Below are positions 3,562-23,116 of a stretch of DNA of 23,706 bases, piece by piece. The stretch is taken from positions 1-23,706 of the forward strand of contig JASHSN010000506.1 of NCBI GenBank assembly GCA_030038695.1, written 5' to 3'. Numbering within the stretch: the stretch's first letter is position 1; every line of letters starts with the position of its first letter. Both the position numbers and the translations under genes were made by a program. The notes beneath the pieces are model-generated. The model did no database searches. It worked only from the letters and a program-made list of their open reading frames with translations, and was not told the DNA's origin. The DNA is from Nitrososphaeraceae archaeon (GTDB lineage: Archaea > Thermoproteota > Nitrososphaeria > Nitrososphaerales > Nitrososphaeraceae).

Positions 3562-4842
3562 TCAAGTTTTCACCATCGCGAGTATGTGTTCGAATGGATA
3601 GGCCAATCTATCTGCCTTCAACGCAGATATAAACCGACCTGTCTTCTTATCTCTTGTCAGTGGGAGAATCTTGCTAGGAATTGGTCGTTTAATTACCTGG
3701 TGAATCGTAAATCCAAACTTTTCCATCGTCTGTATAAAGACATCGCCATTATGAATCCCTACCCCCTTAAGTTCCGTATCGCCAATTACGATAAATGCTC
3801 TCCCACCATGCTTCAAAACCCTGTGCATTTCTTGGAAACAGAGCTGCATTTCAAAAAAGTAACGCTCTACCCCGTTTGCTTCTCTCTTATCGATTTGTCT
3901 GAGTTCTGCTGCGATTTTTCTCCCTAATTTGCTGTAAAGATCAATAGGCAAGTGATCGTCTTTCCGTATTGATCCTATGAATTTACTCCTAAATTCAGAT
4001 AGCTTATCTGCATACCCTAGCCAAATAGCAGTAAGTTGATGTAGATCCGCGTATTCATACGAAGTAACATAGGGCGGGCTTGTGACAATTAAAGAAACAG
4101 AATTTTCCTTTAATCTCATCTTGTAAGCATCAACATTGTCCACAACACAATCATAATCTTTAGTACCAAGGATTTTCCAAAACTCGCCATTTTTTATGAT
4201 CATCCTTCGAGTCTGATGGAAGAAACTTTTGTATGCATCGGCTATTATCTTATCCTTGTCTATTGTAGGTTTAACGGATTTCATCATCCATTTTGAACAT
4301 CCTCTTAAAATGTTCGAGAATGCACAAAGCGAGAAGATTTTTACATCCTGATTCTCAATTTGGCTTATTCTTGATAATATAATTGCCAGATCCACCATTT
4401 GTTTCTCAGGGAACCAGTATTCCAAACGCTTGTTATCAGGTATTCTAATATCAACGTCATTGCAGGTTAAAAGAGACATTTGTCCAAGATGTTTCATTCC
4501 CATACTCGATTTTAGATCTCCTAATAAGTGTGATATTTGGTCTTTCAGGTAGGCAGGCTCAATAGGAGTAGTTTTCGCCTTGCTTATCAATACAGCTACT
4601 GGGTTGATGTCTGTTCCATAAGCCCTCCGTCCGTTTACAATAGCCTCAACTAGCGTGGTACCTGAACCCATAAAGGGGTCACAAACGAGATCTCCGATCC
4701 GACTGTTCTCTTTGATGAACCTGTCTGTAAGCTGAGGGATAAACTTGGCAGGATATTTATGATAATCATGAGTAAGATATGAAGTCTCAAGTCTGCCTAA
4801 CTCTTTAAATGACCAAGAGTCATCCACCTCAACTGAGCGCAC
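3562..4842 (-). CDS. Site-specific DNA methyltransferase (amino-group, N4-C or N6-A)
   Basis: The protein has 426 aa and a GTG start. Residues 24-38 (THDYHKYPAKFIPQL) match the N-terminal signature of a family of site-specific DNA methylases. DPFMGSGTT at 55-63 is the S-adenosylmethionine-binding motif I, and TSPPY at 254-258 is the catalytic motif IV typical of N4-cytosine/N6-adenine methylases. Motif I precedes motif IV with about 190 residues between them, an alpha-like order in which that insert could hold the target-recognition domain. HGGRAFIVIGD at 345-355 fits the following strand. No restriction endonuclease is visible on either side, so it appears solitary. It is divergent from the Mre11-fragment/Rad50 operon. 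Role: transfer of a methyl group to a base in a specific DNA site, for protection, regulation or marking; the site cannot be predicted. Confidence 0.88.
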   Translation of the reverse strand: MRSVEVDDSWSFKELGRLETSYLTHDYHKYPAKFIPQLTDRFIKENSRIGDLVCDPFMGSGTTLVEAIVNGRRAYGTDINPVAVLISKAKTTPIEPAYLKDQISHLLGDLKSSMGMKHLGQMSLLTCNDVDIRIPDNKRLEYWFPEKQMVDLAIILSRISQIENQDVKIFSLCAFSNILRGCSKWMMKSVKPTIDKDKIIADAYKSFFHQTRRMIIKNGEFWKILGTKDYDCVVDNVDAYKMRLKENSVSLIVTSPPYVTSYEYADLHQLTAIWLGYADKLSEFRSKFIGSIRKDDHLPIDLYSKLGRKIAAELRQIDKREANGVERYFFEMQLCFQEMHRVLKHGGRAFIVIGDTELKGVGIHNGDVFIQTMEKFGFTIHQVIKRPIPSKILPLTRDKKTGRFISALKADRLAYPFEHILAMVKT

Positions 4843-5199
4843 AGATTAAAATTATTTCTAAATGTCTATATCTATTTTGAGCGCGGCATTTGATTTTTTG
4901 ATAGTTTGGAATGTTCGATATTAATAAACTCCAAACGACACGCTAGCTTCAACTCAACGTCTCTAGGAAGCCCAATGAGGATAATGGCAGCGGCTGCTAG
5001 CTTTAAATAGGCGGTAACGTTAGAATAAGAGAAACTAAAATTTGTGCTTTCTGTAGCATTAGTCTTTTTCATATTTGTGAAGATCGGCCCGTTCAAGATA
5101 CCAATATAGTATTCTCAATATCATATCACGACAGTGATTAGAGAGGGGGTGATAATAAACTGAACGCTGCAAATGACTACGTGATAGAATTTTCGGAGG
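4843..5199. other. Divergent spacer between methyltransferase and Mre11-like gene
   Basis: This spacer separates two divergent units. It holds a minus-strand frame of 74 codons (4872-5096) with a hydrophobic LKLAAAAIILIGL stretch about 30 bp upstream of the methyltransferase; it is not recognised and may be chance. Nothing here encodes the missing Mre11 phosphoesterase domain in any frame examined, and stops (for example TAG at 5255-5257) close the frame just before the Mre11-like start. Confidence 0.4.
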
Positions 5200-5217
5200 T
5201 AAATAAATATATAAAAA
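5200..5217 (+). promoter_or_regulatory. Probable TATA box of the Mre11-like/Rad50 operon
   Basis: The AT stretch aaataaatatataaaa is a good archaeal TATA-box candidate. It lies about 55-70 bp before the ATG at 5273 and predicts transcription from roughly 5235-5245 with a leader of about 30 nt. It was assigned by eye. Confidence 0.45.
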
Positions 5218-5272
5218 AATAAGATTAGAAAAATCCTTAGAAAATATTAGAAGTTAGAGAAAGGATAGGATA

Positions 5273-5911
5273 ATGTTAAATTGTATATCCTTGTTCAGAT
5301 CCACATTTACAGATTTAGAAGATACTGCACAAGGTAATAGGAGAGGTTTCTATATCATAAGTTATGATGACGAGATGGAAAAAATAAGGGCTGACTTTAA
5401 TGAAATAAAGATAGTAGATATAATATTCAATTCTATTAATATAAATCAATATACAGTCAAGCAAGTAGAAGAAAAAATAAATTCAATAGTAGAAGAAATG
5501 GAGAACCTAACAGGTAATATAGTGCTAATTAAGATAATAGGAAAACGATCCGATATTATTTTTTCAAGATTAAAAGAAAAACTTTCAGCAAAGGGCGCGT
5601 TATTGTGTTACATTAACAAAAACAACCTTTTCTCCCAGGAGACTATCCAAATAAAAGTGTCTGGGGATAGCATAGAAGACATAGAAGAAAAAGTGATAGG
5701 AGAAAGAATAGTATCGTTTAAAATCGATCCTAGTATATCAGATGATAAAGTAAAGAATTTCATACAATCCATACTTATATCTGAACAAGGTAAATTTACC
5801 GCAAACGAGCTATTACTTTTCCTAAAGAAGGAAAGTATCGAAAACGACGAGACTGTAACTGACTTTGAGAAAAAAGTATTTTTGATGCAAATTGTGGGTT
5901 TCAGAGATTAA
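5273..5911 (+). CDS. Mre11 C-terminal-like protein lacking the nuclease domain
   Basis: This 212-aa protein lies 17 bp before rad50, in the position Mre11 normally occupies. Its first 30 residues (SLFRSTFTDL, then GNRRGFYIISYD) match the region just after the last metal-binding motif of Mre11, where archaeal homologues read GS-x-x-R-x-x-F...KGFYIVE. Residues 45-120 resemble the capping domain (IVDIIFNSI; NIVLIKIIGKRSD; LSAKGALLCYINKNNL), and the helical tail (about 155-212) is where Mre11 binds the base of the Rad50 coiled coil. None of the phosphoesterase motifs (D-x-H, GNHD, GH-x-H) is present. Upstream sequence does not supply them and is occupied by the divergent methyltransferase. It may be a Rad50-binding, nuclease-free subunit or a truncated gene kept in frame. 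The family call rests on remembered pattern and position, not a search. Confidence 0.6.
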   Translation: MLNCISLFRSTFTDLEDTAQGNRRGFYIISYDDEMEKIRADFNEIKIVDIIFNSININQYTVKQVEEKINSIVEEMENLTGNIVLIKIIGKRSDIIFSRLKEKLSAKGALLCYINKNNLFSQETIQIKVSGDSIEDIEEKVIGERIVSFKIDPSISDDKVKNFIQSILISEQGKFTANELLLFLKKESIENDETVTDFEKKVFLMQIVGFRD

Positions 5912-5928
5912 TGCATTGGTAAAATAAC

Positions 5929-8511
5929 ATGCTACTCAAAAAAATTACCTTAGAAAATATAAGAAGTTATAAAGAAAAAACAGTAATAGAAATACCTGAA
6001 GGTACAATCCTGTTCCAGGGAGATATTGGATGTGGAAAGTCAACAATTCTCTCTGCAATAGAGTTTGCTCTATTTGGATTAGGCGACATAGATGGAAACA
6101 ATCTTCTGAGATCGGGAGAAATGAGGGGTTCTGTTCTTCTGGAGTTTGAAGCGAATATCAAAAATTATCAGATCTTTCGAAGTCTAATAAGACGTAGTAA
6201 GAAGGTAACACAAGACGCGGGATATATTGTTGACGAACACGTAAGAACTAGCTATTCCGTCAGCGAAATGAAATCTAAGATTCTGAAGATTATTAATATT
6301 AATGAGAAAGCTCAAGCCAGAACAACATCTGTAATTTACCGATTCGCCATTTTTACTCCACAGGAAATGATGAAGCAAATTCTTTCAGAATTGCCAGAGA
6401 AAAGACTAGAAATCCTAAGAAGGGCTTTCAATATTGAAGAATATAGTACAGCCAGGAGGAACGCAGAGATCTTTCTTGGCTGGACGAAAGGCGAGGTCCG
6501 CTTAAGCTCTGAAATAACTAAAGACCTTTATGAAAGGAAAGCATTATTGGAGGGACTTAAACAAAGGGTCACCTTTCTGACAATTGAAGTAGAAAAGGCT
6601 AAGACTGAGATATCAGAGCTAGATAAAAAAATCAAAGAACTGAATGGAGAAATCGAAAGTCTCAAGCCAAGGCAAGTTCTTGTCTTACAGCTTCAGGTAT
6701 CCATACCTCATTTGAATAAGACAATTGAAAGAAATCAAAGGACTTTAGAAAAAGAACAAGAAAGATTAGACCTCCTTAAAAGAGATTTGGCTTCCATCAA
6801 CACCAATGAGAATACTGTTAGCCAACTAGAGCAAATCTATGACGATTACGTTTCAAAGAAAGATAGATTAAAACAGCTAGAACCATCCATTAGATTATTT
6901 GATATTTTTGAGAAGGAAAAGACAAGGTTGGAGCAGCGTTTAGAAAACGAAAGGAAAAACCTCGAATCAGACATCAATAGATTAACGGAAGAGAGAAAAG
7001 CTGAATTAGAAAAGATTGAAAGAGAAGAAAAGTCCATAAAAGAGTTAAACACATTCGAAAAGGAAGAAGCAAGCCTCAAAGAATCGATTTCACATCTTAT
7101 AACGCTAAGAGAGGAATCGGAGGAAATTTTGTCTCTCATCGCCGAAAACAGAACTGAACGTCTAGCACTAGAAGAGCAAATGTCCAAAAAACAAGAGGAA
7201 ATTGAGCGCATGATCAGGATAGGTGAAGGTGCCCCATGTCCTACCTGCCGACAGAAACTGAGTGGAGAGCACATCTCAAAAGTTAAAGCCGAATATCATC
7301 AAGAAAAATTGGGCGTAGAGGAACATGTAAAATATCTGAACCACACATTAACGACTTACGAGCATAAATTAAGAGAGACCAAATCCCTCATGGAGAAACT
7401 AGAAAGTAAAGACGAACACTTAAGGAAACTTCAACGCGTTCTAGGGATGCTAACTGAAAAGAAGGATTCGATCGAGAATGCAAAGAAAAATCTTGAAATT
7501 AAATTCTTTAGGATAACTGAAAACCAACAAAATCTTAGTAACCACAACTATTCTCTTGAAGAACGGACGAAGCTATCACAGATATCGAGAGAGATGTCCG
7601 GGTTAAGTCCTGAGAAAGAATTGTATAGACAAGTAGAACAAATCGTCTCTAAATATGAATTCGAAAAAATTGAACACAGATATCTTGAAGGCTTGCATGA
7701 AATAAAGAGGAAGTCAAAAATTGAAAAGGAAATCAACGATAATAACAAATTAGTAGATACGCTAGAGATCGAGATTAATTCTAATAAACAAAAATTACAC
7801 GAGACGCAGATACTATTTGAAAAGAATAACAATGCAATTAAAGAATTAGAAATATTACAGCAGACGGTTGAAGATTTTAAAAATAAGATGTCAGAAATGA
7901 GACAGAGCATTTCAGGCAAACGATCAGAGCTACGACTTTTAGAAACAAACTTGCATGAAGTTGAAAACGAAGTTCATGTCAAGAAGGAACGCTATCTGAT
8001 TAAACAGATTTTTCGGGAGACGTGTAATTGGCTGGAGCAACACTTTATACCAGCTGTTCAAGACATAGAAAGATATGTTCTTCAGAGTATAAACGAGGAA
8101 TTTAATCAATTATTCCAGAGGTGGTTTCATGTCTTGATGGAGACAGGTAGTATCAGTGTAGAAGCAGATTCTAATTTTACTCCAATTATCAGTCAGAGTG
8201 GTTATTCTCTTAGCATCAATAGTTTAAGCGGAGGAGAAAAGACATCAGTTGCTTTAGCGTACAGACTTGCACTGAACACTATGCTTAAGAGGGTTGCAGG
8301 TATGAATAATGCTTTGCTAATTCTGGATGAACCTACCGACGGATTCGGAAAAGAGCAGTTATTTAGGCTAAAACAAGTTCTAAATGAATTAAACTCTGCA
8401 CAGATAATAATGGTCTCTCATGAGCGTGAATTAGAGAGTTTTGTGGATAAAATTTACCGAGTAACTAAAGATGGCAACCAATCTAGAATCGAAGTGGTGC
8501 GCTATAACTAG
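5929..8511 (+). CDS. rad50: DNA double-strand break repair ATPase Rad50
   Basis: The protein has 860 aa, close to the usual archaeal Rad50 length. Walker A is GDIGCGKST at 31-39; the Q-loop is in FTPQEMMKQIL; two long Glu/Lys-rich coiled-coil arms surround the zinc hook CPTC (C437 and C440). The C-terminal lobe carries the ABC signature SLSGGEK at 765-771, Walker B LLILDEPTD at 796-804 and the H-loop SHE with His831. Rad50 folds its arms through Zn-mediated hook pairing and uses ATP to open and close the complex on DNA ends, normally with the Mre11 nuclease. Here the upstream partner retains only the Mre11 C-terminal part. All ATPase motifs look intact, so this is not a decayed gene. Translation is probably coupled to the upstream gene (17-bp gap). 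Confidence 0.93.
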   Translation: MLLKKITLENIRSYKEKTVIEIPEGTILFQGDIGCGKSTILSAIEFALFGLGDIDGNNLLRSGEMRGSVLLEFEANIKNYQIFRSLIRRSKKVTQDAGYIVDEHVRTSYSVSEMKSKILKIININEKAQARTTSVIYRFAIFTPQEMMKQILSELPEKRLEILRRAFNIEEYSTARRNAEIFLGWTKGEVRLSSEITKDLYERKALLEGLKQRVTFLTIEVEKAKTEISELDKKIKELNGEIESLKPRQVLVLQLQVSIPHLNKTIERNQRTLEKEQERLDLLKRDLASINTNENTVSQLEQIYDDYVSKKDRLKQLEPSIRLFDIFEKEKTRLEQRLENERKNLESDINRLTEERKAELEKIEREEKSIKELNTFEKEEASLKESISHLITLREESEEILSLIAENRTERLALEEQMSKKQEEIERMIRIGEGAPCPTCRQKLSGEHISKVKAEYHQEKLGVEEHVKYLNHTLTTYEHKLRETKSLMEKLESKDEHLRKLQRVLGMLTEKKDSIENAKKNLEIKFFRITENQQNLSNHNYSLEERTKLSQISREMSGLSPEKELYRQVEQIVSKYEFEKIEHRYLEGLHEIKRKSKIEKEINDNNKLVDTLEIEINSNKQKLHETQILFEKNNNAIKELEILQQTVEDFKNKMSEMRQSISGKRSELRLLETNLHEVENEVHVKKERYLIKQIFRETCNWLEQHFIPAVQDIERYVLQSINEEFNQLFQRWFHVLMETGSISVEADSNFTPIISQSGYSLSINSLSGGEKTSVALAYRLALNTMLKRVAGMNNALLILDEPTDGFGKEQLFRLKQVLNELNSAQIIMVSHERELESFVDKIYRVTKDGNQSRIEVVRYN

Positions 8512-9675: not shown

Positions 9676-10131
9676 TCATCTCGATGGTAAACATGGAAGA
9701 TAACATGTGGTTGAACCTAAGCTCTGAGGTTGGTTATATGGCTGATTCGAGCTCTGAGGTTGGTTATATGGCTGATTCGAGCTCTGAGGTTGGTTATATG
9801 GCTGATTCGAGCTCTGAGGTTGGTTATATGGCTGATTCGAGCTCTGAGGTTGGTTTGCTACTTGATTTAATTGACTAGAGAGTGACTGACAGTTGTTGTT
9901 GATACAGGTTGTCGCCTCGCATATATCCCCATCACAATGAGTACTATGGGTTGCGTCAATATGGTTAAGATTCATCATGCTTGTCGCGTATGCTATAGTG
10001 TAAGGGTATTCTACGTTCGTAATTGTCAAAATAGCCGTTGATAATAATACCACTGTGGCTAATGTCATAACGCCATTGATTCTAGTCGCTGCAGCATGAT
10101 ACTCGGCTACGCTTGTCACTCCGTGGTTCAC
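9676..10131 (-). CDS. Exported Cys-rich protein with tandem QPQSSNQPYN repeats
   Basis: This 151-aa frame starts with GTG. A hydrophobic export segment (about residues 21-48, VMTLATVVLLSTAILTITN) is followed by four cysteines at exact 5-residue spacing (C66, C71, C76, C81: CX4CX4CX4C). Residues about 93-136 are four and a half perfect copies of the 10-residue unit QPQSSNQPYN, then a tail with C143 and C147. The even Cys spacing suggests disulfides outside the cell or metal binding. The Gln/Asn/Pro-rich repeat should be extended and may act as a wall-like spacer or adhesive arm. A TATA-like aaatatact (10151-10160) 20-29 bp upstream supports the GTG and an almost leaderless transcript. ATG at 10068 is an alternative but would begin inside the signal. 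Function unknown. Confidence 0.6.
   Translation of the reverse strand: MNHGVTSVAEYHAAATRINGVMTLATVVLLSTAILTITNVEYPYTIAYATSMMNLNHIDATHSTHCDGDICEATTCINNNCQSLSSQLNQVANQPQSSNQPYNQPQSSNQPYNQPQSSNQPYNQPQSSNQPYNQPQSLGSTTCYLPCLPSR
9721..9855. repeat. 30-bp perfect tandem repeat, 4.5 copies
   Basis: Four identical 30-bp units (gctctgaggttggttatatg plus gctgattcga) at 9721-9840 are followed by 15 bp of a fifth. The unit is a multiple of three and encodes QPQSSNQPYN on the minus strand. The absence of any mismatch implies recent expansion by slippage or unequal crossing-over, and copy number probably varies between strains. Confidence 0.95.
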
Positions 10132-16518: not shown

Positions 16519-18198
16519 TCACCAGCCGTTCGCATTAATGCCAGTCCCTCCATTAGTATTAGCTCCTAGACTATTAGTGTGATCTACGCCCAAGCCTCCA
16601 TTGCCTCCATTAACGCTATTTGTATTAGCTCCACCTACACTTATCCCGCCGCTTCCTCCAAGGCCCCCATTGGCATTAGCCCCATTCACCCCTATTCCAC
16701 CATTCCCTCCAATCCCTCCATTTGCGCTAGCTCCATTAGCATTAGCCCCATTCACCCCTATTCCACCATTCCCTCCAATCCCTCCGTTCTGTGCACTAGC
16801 TCCGTTAGAATTCGTTTCGTTAGCTATGATAGCATTAGCTCCGTTAGTTCCAAGCCCGCCTGTTGTACCAAGAGTTCCAAGCCCGCCTGTTGTACCAAGA
16901 TTTTCATTAGTTCCACTGGAATTAGTCACAAGACCCGGTGTTACACCTGCTCCTCCATTCCCACCAATTCCACCAAGGCCGCCGCTAGTTCCATTGGCGT
17001 TAGATCCATATACGCCATTATCTGTAACACCGTTCCCTCCATTCAGATCCGCGCCGTTAGCTCCATTAACACCCTCGTTAACGCTCCCTCCATTAACATT
17101 ATTACCGTTGGCTGGATTTGAATTACTTCCGCTAGGTACATTGGTGTTACTTCCATTAGCTATATTAGCTGCATGAGCACTGACTCCATTTCCAGTTACA
17201 CCAGTCCCATTAGTAGGAGTGAAGGATTCGTCAGATCCCATAACTTTCACATTTGATATCTCACCAGGCCCATCGCTTAGAAAAGTGATCTTGACGTACC
17301 TAGCTTGAACGGGAGAATTAGGGATATTATATAACTCTCCACCGGAGATCATTCCAGTATTTTGAACAGTTCCGTCGTCGACGAAATGTATACCGTCTGT
17401 TGACGTCTGTATCGAAAAAAAGTTTATAGCCTTATCCCCGTTTGCGAACCCAACCAAAAGTCTACAAATAGATTTTTCCTTTCCTAAATCAAACTGGAGC
17501 CACGAACCTTTCCCCGTCGAAGACCAGCTAGCAACATTAGGACTTGAACCATTATAATTAGTATTAAATGAATGCGCAAGTTCCAAGCTGTTTACCTTAT
17601 TATCGTTATCTGTTACTCCTTGAATCTGAAGATTGCTGGGGTTACCACATCCCACTTGACCGATTGAATTAATGGTAGCTGATTCTGGATATTGACTACC
17701 TAGTACATTCGTTAAAGCTGTGTATGATGTGTATTTGCCACCTGGGAAGACAACGCGAGCTTCTATATTCCAAATACCCGGGAGTTTTGCAATTTCAAAT
17801 GAGTTTGAACCTATTTGTTTGAGTGGAAGCGCTGAAGGCATGTCTCCGTCGTAATCCACAATATATGCATCCACCTTCAAGGGTTTTTTACTAAATTCAA
17901 AGCTTATTTTGGAACCCTCTTGAACATTAAATGTGCTGTGGCTATCAGAATCTGGGAGTGCTGGAAAACCAAGCTTTGTAAATTTTCCACCCTCAATGAA
18001 AACAAATGGAGACATAGTAATTTTTTGACCATGAATGATTAACTGGGCTTCCGGCGGTGTACTAGACAAATCTTGAGCATGAATGCTATTATGAGATGCT
18101 TTGACGTGCGCAAAGGAAAACGAAACGAGAGTGGATGTGGATATCAAAAAAAGCAGTAAAGTAGTAAAGATATTCAGAAATGCATCGTTATGTTTCAT
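16519..18198 (-). CDS. Exported protein with F5/8C (discoidin-like) domain and Gly/Asn-rich repeat tail
   Basis: This 559-aa protein has a signal peptide at about 8-32 (IFTTLLLFLISTSTLVSFSF). Residues 50-165 look like a beta-rich domain (ISFEFSKKPLKVDAYIVDYDG; GIWNIEARVVFPGG). Residues 185-322 fit an F5/8 type C/discoidin jelly-roll: CGNPSNLQIQGVTDNDNKVN, SWLQFDLGKEKSICRLLVGF, FFSIQTSTDGIHFVDDG, ARYVKITFLSDGPGEISNVK. Such domains bind glycans or lipids. From about 330 to the end it is low-complexity Gly/Asn/Ala/Ser (NGGIGGNGGIGVNGANANG-type units). There is no C-terminal anchor. It may be a surface adhesin or matrix component. The repeat tail is built from exact DNA duplications (listed separately). 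The plus strand opposite it has long Pro-rich frames that are shadows. Confidence 0.82.
   Translation of the reverse strand: MKHNDAFLNIFTTLLLFLISTSTLVSFSFAHVKASHNSIHAQDLSSTPPEAQLIIHGQKITMSPFVFIEGGKFTKLGFPALPDSDSHSTFNVQEGSKISFEFSKKPLKVDAYIVDYDGDMPSALPLKQIGSNSFEIAKLPGIWNIEARVVFPGGKYTSYTALTNVLGSQYPESATINSIGQVGCGNPSNLQIQGVTDNDNKVNSLELAHSFNTNYNGSSPNVASWSSTGKGSWLQFDLGKEKSICRLLVGFANGDKAINFFSIQTSTDGIHFVDDGTVQNTGMISGGELYNIPNSPVQARYVKITFLSDGPGEISNVKVMGSDESFTPTNGTGVTGNGVSAHAANIANGSNTNVPSGSNSNPANGNNVNGGSVNEGVNGANGADLNGGNGVTDNGVYGSNANGTSGGLGGIGGNGGAGVTPGLVTNSSGTNENLGTTGGLGTLGTTGGLGTNGANAIIANETNSNGASAQNGGIGGNGGIGVNGANANGASANGGIGGNGGIGVNGANANGGLGGSGGISVGGANTNSVNGGNGGLGVDHTNSLGANTNGGTGINANGW
16673..16785. 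repeat. Two 47-bp exact direct repeats, 66-bp period
   Basis: Bases 16673-16719 and 16739-16785 are identical. The 66-bp offset equals 22 codons, so the duplication keeps frame in the Gly-rich tail (GGIGGNGGIGVNGANA-type unit). This suggests recent internal duplication in the coding sequence. Confidence 0.9.
16847..16900. repeat. 27-bp exact tandem duplication
   Basis: Bases 16847-16873 are repeated exactly at 16874-16900. The unit encodes nine residues (a cyclic form of LGTTGGLGT) on the minus strand. It is another in-frame slippage event inside the Gly-rich tail. Confidence 0.9.
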
Positions 18199-18378: not shown

Positions 18379-19011
18379 ATGGCTACAAAAAGTATGTTGA
18401 CTATAGGTGCCTTTTTATTAACAGCATGCAGCTTGAGCTTAGGCAACCTTGCTGTTCCAGCCTACTCATTGCCGAATCATGCTGCTCATTCGCAAGTAAA
18501 TACTGATCCTGAAATCAACAAGCAGGTACTCAAAGGAGTAGCTAATGTGTTAAAAGGAGTAAACATCATTTTAATGGGTAAAACATCTGCTGGATTGGAT
18601 GTAATTTCGATAGGAGCTAATATGATACGCTCTGCGTGCAACATTGCAAATAGTGAAAGTGGAACTAACGGCACAACTGGAAAAGGTGCAAACGGTGGTC
18701 AAGGTGGCGAGGGAGCTACCGGTGCCGGTTCCTGTGGCTCGACCATTAATGGTGGAATTGGGGGCAGCGGTGTTAATGGAGGCATTGCAGGAAATGGAGG
18801 TCATGGCACCCCTGGTACTAATGCAAATGGCTCCCCTGGTACTAACGCAAGTGGTACTAGTGGAAATGGTGGAGCAGGTGGTAGAGGCGGTACTGGTGGA
18901 GCAGGCGGTGTGGGTGGCATCGGTGGAAATGGAGGGACTTGTACTACGTCTCCTTGTAACTCTAATGGTGGGAACGCAAACGGAGGAAATGCTAACGACG
19001 AAGACAGCTGA
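18379..19011 (+). CDS. Exported Gly/Asn-rich protein with amphipathic N-terminal domain
   Basis: This 210-aa protein has an ATG start. The signal is at about 5-30. It contains LLTAC, a lipobox-like sequence with Cys17, so it could be a lipoprotein; cleavage after AYS is the other choice. Residues 43-90 form a non-repetitive, probably helical segment (INKQVLKGVANVLKGVNIIL; SAGLDVISIGANMIRSAC) with a GVANVLKGVNIILMGK-like hydrophobic periodicity that could contact membranes or other proteins. Residues 95-210 are Gly-rich GG-x repeats (GGAGGRGGTGGAGGVGGIGG). Near the end are a Cys pair (C188, C193) and NGGNANGGNAN. It is divergent from the discoidin-domain gene 180 bp away. TATA-like tttatag lies about 50 bp upstream. 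Role unknown; likely surface exposed. Confidence 0.75.
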   Translation: MATKSMLTIGAFLLTACSLSLGNLAVPAYSLPNHAAHSQVNTDPEINKQVLKGVANVLKGVNIILMGKTSAGLDVISIGANMIRSACNIANSESGTNGTTGKGANGGQGGEGATGAGSCGSTINGGIGGSGVNGGIAGNGGHGTPGTNANGSPGTNASGTSGNGGAGGRGGTGGAGGVGGIGGNGGTCTTSPCNSNGGNANGGNANDEDS

Positions 19012-20610: not shown

Positions 20611-20898
20611 TTAGCTGTTGGGAATATGATAATCCATGCAGCCGGCATGACATTGCGCATATCCACCGTTTGCGTCGCCGCCGTGGCCGCCATCAGCATC
20701 TCCGCCATTCGCAAATCCAAATACAGCGATCCCTCCAACCCCGCCAATTCCACCATTACCAGCTTCTCCTCCAGATCCTCCTCCTCCCCCAGACGCGCTT
20801 CCTGCTATTACTGGGGCTGGTCCCGCAAATGCAAGCGTAACTAACGTTAGGACGGTAGCTATCGTCGCTGCCAAAAGAGCATATGTTTTCTTGTTCAT
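20611..20898 (-). CDS. Small exported Gly-rich protein (95 aa), paralogue of the 22676-22954 gene
   Basis: ATG 20898 gives MNKKTYALLAATIATVLTLV, a clean signal peptide with a processing site near VIAG. The 60-residue mature part is GGGGGSGGEAGNGGIGGVGG, then GGIAVFGFANGGDADGGHGG, DANGGYAQCHAGCMDYHIPN. A CX3C pair (C83, C87) lies near the end. The start was chosen because the signal begins there and because the DNA upstream is a block shared with the paralogue (20899-21060). A longer frame reaching 21054 reads through this block but has no signal-like start. Role unknown; exported, probably surface or matrix. Confidence 0.7.
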   Translation of the reverse strand: MNKKTYALLAATIATVLTLVTLAFAGPAPVIAGSASGGGGGSGGEAGNGGIGGVGGIAVFGFANGGDADGGHGGDANGGYAQCHAGCMDYHIPNS

Positions 20899-21060
20899 AA
20901 TTCTTAGTATGATCTTCAAATAACTTAATTTATTAAAGATGGGAAGAATTATTCTTACTAGCTGCTGCACAGTTGATTTAGATAGGATGAAGATGTACTT
21001 GGATATCAGTAGATGATAACTAAGGATATACCATACCATATAGGATTCAAACAATCGATA
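20899..21060 (-). repeat. 162-bp upstream block, copy 1 (about 96% identical to 22955-23116)
   Basis: This stretch directly precedes the ATG at 20898. Aligned without gaps to 22955-23116 it shows about seven differences in 162 positions, clustered in the far third; the 95 or so bases nearest the genes are almost identical except one. It includes the putative TATA element at 20930-20937. It may be a promoter/leader duplicated with the gene. Confidence 0.9.
20930..20937 (-). promoter_or_regulatory. TATA-like element of the 95-aa Gly-rich gene
   Basis: On the minus strand it reads tttaataa, 32-39 bp before the start; it predicts a leader of roughly 10 nt. The same element occurs at the same distance in the paralogue (22986-22993). 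Confidence 0.4.
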
Positions 21061-22675: not shown

Positions 22676-22954
22676 TCAGTTCACGCAGGCACCTTGGCCA
22701 CAGTACGCGTCTCCGCCGTTGGCGTTACCACCGTGACCGCCGTTGGCGTTACCACCATTTGCAGATCCTCCGCCATTTAGTACTTTACCGCCATTTCCTC
22801 CTGTTCCACCTGCTCCGCCTGCTCCTCCGTATCCTCCTTTTCCACCATATGCACTTCCTGCTAATACATGTGTTGGTACTGCAATTGCCAAAATAGCTAC
22901 TGCGAGGATGGTAGCTATCGTCGCTGTCAAAAGCACAGATGTATTCTTATTCAT
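22676..22954 (-). CDS. Small exported Gly/Asn-rich protein (92 aa), paralogue of the 20611-20898 gene
   Basis: ATG 22954 gives MNKNTSVLLTATIATILAVA, a signal peptide with processing near VLAG. The mature part is GG-x and ANGG units: YGGKGGYGGAGGAGGTGGNG, then SANGGNANGGHGGNANGGDA, ending with a CX4C pair (C85, C90). Signal and tail resemble the 95-aa neighbour (TATIATIL against AATIATVL; NANGG-type end) but the coding DNA has diverged, while the 162 bp upstream is nearly identical. The start is fixed by the signal and by the boundary of the shared block. Role unknown. Confidence 0.72.
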   Translation of the reverse strand: MNKNTSVLLTATIATILAVAILAIAVPTHVLAGSAYGGKGGYGGAGGAGGTGGNGGKVLNGGGSANGGNANGGHGGNANGGDAYCGQGACVN

Positions 22955-23116
22955 AATCCTTAGTATGATCTTCAAATAACTTAATTTATTAAAGATGGGA
23001 AGAATTATTCTTACTAGCTGCTGCACAGTTGATTTAGATAGGATGAAGATGTACTTAGATATCAGTAGATGATATCTAAGAGTATACCCTACCATACAGG
23101 ATTCAAACAATCGATA
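22955..23116 (-). repeat. 162-bp upstream block, copy 2 (about 96% identical to 20899-21060)
   Basis: It immediately precedes the ATG at 22954 and aligns without gaps to copy 1. The TATA-like element tttaataa recurs at 22986-22993. Identity stops after the shared aatcgata-type end at 23116, so the block has sharp limits at both sides. Confidence 0.9.

Follow-up and report, generated by a model that had tools for sequence, protein, structure and literature searches.

Does a Rad50 that stands beside only half of an Mre11 define a nuclease-free complex, or can such a locus arise by ordinary rearrangement? The question is raised by a stretch of 23,706 nucleotides (nt), hereafter the window, which is contig C55 (JASHSN010000506.1) of the draft genome, or bin, GCA_030038695.1 of a Nitrososphaeraceae archaeon, and in which a gene for the C-terminal half of an archaeal Mre11, devoid of nuclease motifs, lies directly before rad50. 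An earlier sequence-only reading had proposed a nuclease-free Rad50 complex or, alternatively, one that recruits another nuclease in trans. Our analysis indicates that the case is most likely in the main an ordinary rearrangement: the 212-amino-acid (aa) gene is probably the product of a partial tandem duplication of an ancestral mre11-rad50 pair whose parent copy was lost, Rad50 being served by a full-length Mre11 encoded on another contig of the bin, C650, and the half-gene being a by-product. The draft genome (3.75 Mb, 679 contigs, 78.5% complete, 5.1% contaminated) is placed by sequence comparison in the Nitrosopolaris group, in the same genus as genome G197, whose NurA, HerA, Mre11 and Rad50 are identical to those of QHBN01000089.1 (Candidatus Nitrosopolaris wilkensis); a passage in PMC10117904 describes the group as putative ammonia oxidisers with a polar and alpine distribution.

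The truncated mre11 (5273..5911, forward strand) and the complete rad50 (5929..8511, forward strand), separated by 17 nt, are intact over 212 and 860 codons, as had been claimed, and the description of the former as the end of the phosphoesterase domain, the capping domain and the Rad50-binding tail agrees with its homology to the C-terminal half of Mre11, except that the homology to relatives ends at about residue 203, beyond which the C-terminal end is rearranged, leaving most of the tail (domain names were assigned by comparison with Mre11 structures). The 212-aa protein aligns to full-length Mre11 only from about residue 220, and the invariant motifs of five aligned full-length Mre11 proteins span residues 9-200, the Pfam Metallophos domain residues 3-201; the capping domain is thus present, the phosphoesterase metal-binding motifs are absent, and a Pfam search returned neither a Metallophos match nor anything else above cut-off. 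Nor can the upstream DNA supply the missing part, another point on which the sequence-only reading was right, given that positions 4843-5287 resemble neither the 654 nt absent from the front of mre11 nor herA any better than shuffled sequences do (138/200, 67/200 and 172/200). A chance frame is ruled out by the strong homology to Mre11. A Foldseek search of the 212-aa protein against the PDB gave no match at E<=0.001, and a PDB sequence search with the protein alone likewise found none; the profile of alignment A2 matched PDB Mre11 chains, but because A2 includes full-length relatives, this match alone tells nothing about the 212-aa protein. Helices are predicted, with low confidence (predicted local distance difference test scores of about 50-66), at residues 157-167 and 171-190, in the region of the Rad50-binding tail.

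The Rad50 encoded next to this fragment retains its full length together with the Walker A and B, signature and CxxC hook motifs, in keeping with the earlier claim, and is 71% identical over its full length to the Rad50 of G197. It matches the NCBIfam Rad50 model at 1.8e-41, below the equivalog cut-offs, and its Pfam zinc-hook match reaches 19.2 bits against a cut-off of 24.3. Its ratio of non-synonymous to synonymous substitution rates (omega) is 0.14-0.19, with omega=1 rejected (twice the log-likelihood difference, 2dlnL, about 15.7); in the account that we favour, the protein remains functional. Only one rad50 match at E<=1e-20 was found in the bin (13 of the 14 candidates having been scored), to which a profile search adds only a weaker match on contig C93. 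Transfer of the whole operon from outside the genus was considered and rejected, the synonymous divergence (dS) of rad50 from G197, 0.95, resembling that of rpoB, 0.91.

The origin of the half-gene is recorded in a 99-nt scar immediately upstream of it. Positions 5169-5267 align with the junction between the end of mre11 and the start of rad50 in G197 (L046:5340-5440), with 74 of 96 ungapped columns identical and four indels, at a score of 78 that none of 1000 dinucleotide shuffles attained (maximum 49.5). Its first portion (5169..5221, forward strand; aligned to L046:5340-5387) corresponds to the degraded 3' end of an mre11 that was once full-length, the first copy of the tandem duplication, and the second (5222..5267, forward strand) to a decayed rad50 5' start, which encodes SLENIRS followed by a stop in the rad50 frame and which is the other half of the duplicated junction, as seen by self-alignment and by a 22-nt direct repeat at 5235-5256 and 5948-5969 (spacing 713). 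The point at which this rad50 start is joined to about codon 209 of mre11 can be placed approximately at 5262..5273 (forward strand) from the alignment ends, the rad50-start alignment stopping at 5267 and the mre11 alignment to G197 starting near 5264. Because the rad50 part of the scar resembles the rad50 start of the window itself (3 mismatches over 36 ungapped columns) more closely than that of G197 (8 in 37), the duplication probably occurred in this lineage, small as these numbers are. A different reading of the same DNA, as a decayed continuation of the mre11 frame, could be drawn from tblastn, which carried the Mre11 match past the ATG as far upstream as 5192 and, in another instance, through a stop to 5228; it was ruled out when blastn showed 5169-5267 to be the mre11-end/rad50-start junction.

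In the sequence of events that we favour, a segment of some 740 nt, starting near codon 209 of mre11 and reaching to around nucleotide 50 of rad50, would have been copied head to tail, giving the order full mre11, rad50 start fragment, mre11 C-terminal half, rad50. The original full-length mre11, along with any herA and nurA before it, would then have been lost from the locus, so that only ~50 nt of its 3' end and the disrupted rad50 start remained. The window's Rad50 would work in trans with the full-length Mre11 of C650, as an ordinary Mre11-Rad50 nuclease encoded at two separated loci, and the C-terminal half beside rad50 would be a dispensable by-product with relaxed constraint, perhaps translated but no more than accessory, and not the sole Mre11 of the cell.

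This full-length Mre11 came to light in the search of the remaining genome that the sequence-only reading had suggested. The second mre11 place in the bin, matched at C650:177-1457, is a gene at 177-1496 encoding 439 aa, 79% identical to the Mre11 of G197, with a Metallophos domain above cut-off (3.3e-11, residues 3-201), matches to Mre11 models and the invariant residues D9, H11, D48, H84, H165, H198 and H200. On the 4,338-bp contig no rad50 follows mre11, and the 176 nt preceding it hold no complete herA, though a candidate herA tail there is weakly supported (19 of 1000 shuffles reach its score). With this gene in the bin and full-length genes in relatives, a nuclease-free complex as the cell's Rad50 complex is not supported; recruitment of a nuclease in trans fits best, with the difference that the partner would be an ordinary full-length Mre11. 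Most probably the C55 Rad50 pairs with the C650 Mre11 in a nuclease complex of the ordinary kind, the fragment being a by-product which the cell may or may not produce. In passing, the canonical form of phosphoesterase motif III is GNHD, and all 14 full-length Mre11s aligned here read GSHD (alignment A3, position 83).

A protein tree (P1 and 34 matched rows, some genomes entering twice under two locus identifiers; a subset of the 75 matching genomes of the order) groups the fragment with the C650 copy (92), but in a nucleotide tree C650 falls with the G188 clade (76). A gene-conversion tract between the two at ~5704-5783 (95% identity in one 60-nt step) was examined and proved not significant (316/5000 shuffles). 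The dS to G197 of the C650 mre11 (0.55) and of the fragment (0.62) lie below those of rad50 and rpoB, a difference that is unexplained.

Among the five other genomes of the genus, full-length mre11 lies directly before rad50 in three (G188, G197 and G201), is cut by a contig end in G113, and neither gene was found in G122; the order in G188 and G197 is nurA-herA-mre11 (437 aa)-rad50, with NurA and HerA of G197 confirmed by Pfam, and G193, of the same family, has the end of herA, then full-length mre11, then directly rad50. Searching the family with an alignment of full-length Mre11s gave matches at E<=1e-5 in 46 of 70 genomes, and the 15 operon-type places (E below 1e-50) comprise 13 full-length genes, the contig-end cut of G113 and the fragment of the window. 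At the level of the order, 75 of 201 genomes have an Mre11 match, and no other truncated mre11 was found among the seven other places with frames under 380 aa: five (G113, G053, G064, G038 and G054) run into a contig end, and the other two, in G147 (20,000 of the 21,005 bases of its contig examined) and G153, show no convincing Mre11.

The survey also returned observations on the family at large. Two Mre11 types occur in it, the operon type, present in genera g1, g3, g4 and g6, and a more remote type (E 1e-7 to 1e-32), present in genera g2, g5, g11 and g56, with G022 carrying both, and 24 of the 70 family genomes match neither at E<=1e-5. The mre11-rad50 pair is not always tight, given that loci L076 and L087 of genus g6 have ~1.8-2.3 kb of other DNA between the two genes. 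As to their usual neighbours, a passage in PMC2288612 states that mre11 and rad50 are linked to nurA and herA in most hyperthermophilic archaea, and one in PMC5797428 that the thermophilic thaumarchaeon Nitrosocaldus cavascurensis encodes all four; at the window locus herA and nurA are not adjacent, and neither had a significant match in the window or anywhere in the bin, with a herA query that was positive in three of six genus genomes and a nurA query that lacked such a control.

Several observations weigh against the account of duplication and parental loss, and they concern both C650 and the fragment itself. The S7e-like gene of C650 (L043, 2776-3285, reverse strand; Pfam match below cut-off) is strongly diverged, being only 46-51% identical to its counterparts in genus members that are 70-96% identical to one another, and in a bin of this completeness and contamination C650 may stem from another cell. 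The strongest competing explanation is built on these facts: C650 would derive from a different strain or species, and the organism of the window would either possess a complete operon that went unassembled or truly have no full-length Mre11, an explanation which the fragmentation into 679 contigs and the lack of nurA and herA matches in the bin, the latter with a query that found herA in three of six genus genomes, make a real if minority prospect. Its difficulty is that the C650 mre11 and the window's rad50 are both nearer to G197 than to G201, that the end of C650 shares 122 identical nt with the start of contig C103 and carries, to judge from a helix-turn-helix match, a putative insertion sequence, that this insertion-sequence-like stretch and dispersed repeats are shared with other contigs of the bin, and that the bin holds a single match each for the S7e-like gene and for rpoB. 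C650 is likely to belong to the same organism as the window.

Whether the fragment is decaying or used is the point on which the evidence is divided. The sequence-only reading had argued from the intact frames for selection rather than decay, which is sound for rad50 and holds only weakly for the fragment. The fragment branch has an omega of 0.33-0.43 against a background of 0.10-0.11 in codon models (2dlnL about 10-11), or of 0.32-0.53 against 0.08-0.09 in models that also free the C650 branch (omega 0.19-0.20), and of 0.2-0.3 by three-point counts; as part of this branch predates the truncation, values of 0.3-0.4 are compatible with recent neutrality. Residues invariant in 11 family relatives (seven of them one related group, L073-L078 and L087; Lokiarchaeota and other distant matches excluded) are changed at 8 of 42 sites in the fragment versus 1 of 42 in C650 (Fisher p=0.03), and a net 15-nt deletion has removed five residues from a stretch conserved in relatives. 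On the opposite side, omega=1 on the fragment branch is rejected on two of three tree shapes (2dlnL 7.3 and 7.6; third 1.1), and, while the control relatives L069, L070 and L071 changed 3/45, 4/45 and 2/43 such sites, the more distant L072 changed 13/54, so that 8/42 is only suggestive and no proof of decay. Furthermore, stops and frameshifts occur in 5169-5267 and at the 3' end, and the 594-nt interior has no stop and no net frameshift (net -15 and +3) against four indels in the 99-nt scar (p 0.005 counting two interior events, 0.01 counting three and 0.03 counting the five gap pieces of the raw alignment); a neutral fragment would stay free of stops with a probability of about 0.06-0.12 at 40-60 substitutions. 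We therefore regard the fragment as an apparently lineage-specific partial duplicate under relaxed constraint and not clearly a dead gene, so that of the two circumstances which the sequence-only reading would have taken jointly as fatal to its proposal, full-length Mre11 at this locus in close relatives is present and clear decay of the copy is not.

The same protected frame lends some substance to the idea that the C-terminal half is a retained working subunit, with putative Rad50 binding through its helical tail, made together with Rad50 as a second, nuclease-free complex beside the ordinary one that would tether DNA ends, or compete with or restrain the nuclease of full-length Mre11. Omega values below 1, the retention of the fragment just upstream of rad50 and the low-confidence helices at the tail are in keeping with it; we nonetheless judge both the subunit and these roles unlikely, inasmuch as constraint is weaker than on full-length Mre11, invariant and conserved residues have been changed or deleted, the C-terminus is rearranged, capping part and tail show no clear difference in constraint, and this is the sole truncation not due to a contig end among the operon-type places of the family. 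Less probable again is that the frame rather than the sequence was selected, to carry ribosomes to rad50 by a translational coupling inherited from the operon: the rad50 start follows the mre11 stop by 1 nt in G188 and G197, and the two overlap in G113, G193 and G201, and a kept frame with weak amino-acid constraint is what such coupling would give, but the gap is now 17 nt and an omega below 1 suggests some amino-acid constraint, though the time before duplication also accounts for that. An assembly error that removed the front half of mre11, conceivable in so fragmented a bin, is very improbable, because both substitutions and indels separate the scar from the copy in the window, which makes it old sequence and no false join of identical repeats, and because the fragment's protein is at least 28% different from all the full-length copies matched.

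Elsewhere in the window, an N6/N4 DNA methylase gene (3562..4842, reverse strand; PF01555 1.5e-26, matching in two stretches) lies divergently from the mre11 fragment, on the side that carries herA in G188, G197 and G193. A frame at 9676-10131 (reverse strand) has terminal repeats of the form QSSNQPYNQP, and two small proteins rich in glycine, perhaps secreted and almost identical over an N-terminal stretch, are encoded ~2 kb apart on the reverse strand (20611-21054 and 22676-23110), within a run of glycine/asparagine-rich frames that includes 16519-18198 and 18379-19011.

These findings illustrate that an Mre11-Rad50 locus which looks nuclease-free need not be a new system but can result from partial tandem duplication, loss of the parent copy and persistence of a complete gene elsewhere, and they call for caution in reading function from a single locus of a draft genome. 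Among the open-licence papers listed by searches on archaeal mre11 pseudogenes, truncated Mre11 and nuclease-domain loss, we found no report of a half-mre11/rad50 arrangement; pseudogenes and truncation brought up a review of disease mutations. According to a passage in PMC2700283, mre11 rad50 deletion mutants of Haloferax volcanii are viable with an altered choice of repair, such that reorganisation of the Mre11-Rad50 system is tolerable, at least there; in the soil archaea studied here the system looks fluid, as the two distinct Mre11 types across the family suggest. Should the half-protein be used after all, it would be a natural Mre11 in which the Rad50-binding and nuclease parts are separated.

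Set against known systems, the fragment resembles the archaeal Mre11 of the NurA-HerA-Mre11-Rad50 system in being homologous throughout the C-terminal half, up to its rearranged end, and in keeping the usual order beside rad50, and differs from it in lacking the phosphoesterase motifs, in being a partial duplicate and in having a full-length copy on another contig. The Rad50 is that of other archaea in length, in ATPase and hook motifs and in constraint, yet it is paired in cis with half an Mre11 and has neither herA nor nurA beside it. Partial tandem gene duplicates are a known general kind, and the locus shares with them the succession of a two-gene junction scar, a 5'-truncated copy and an intact downstream gene, whereas, unlike them, its truncated copy keeps an uninterrupted frame of ~200 codons.

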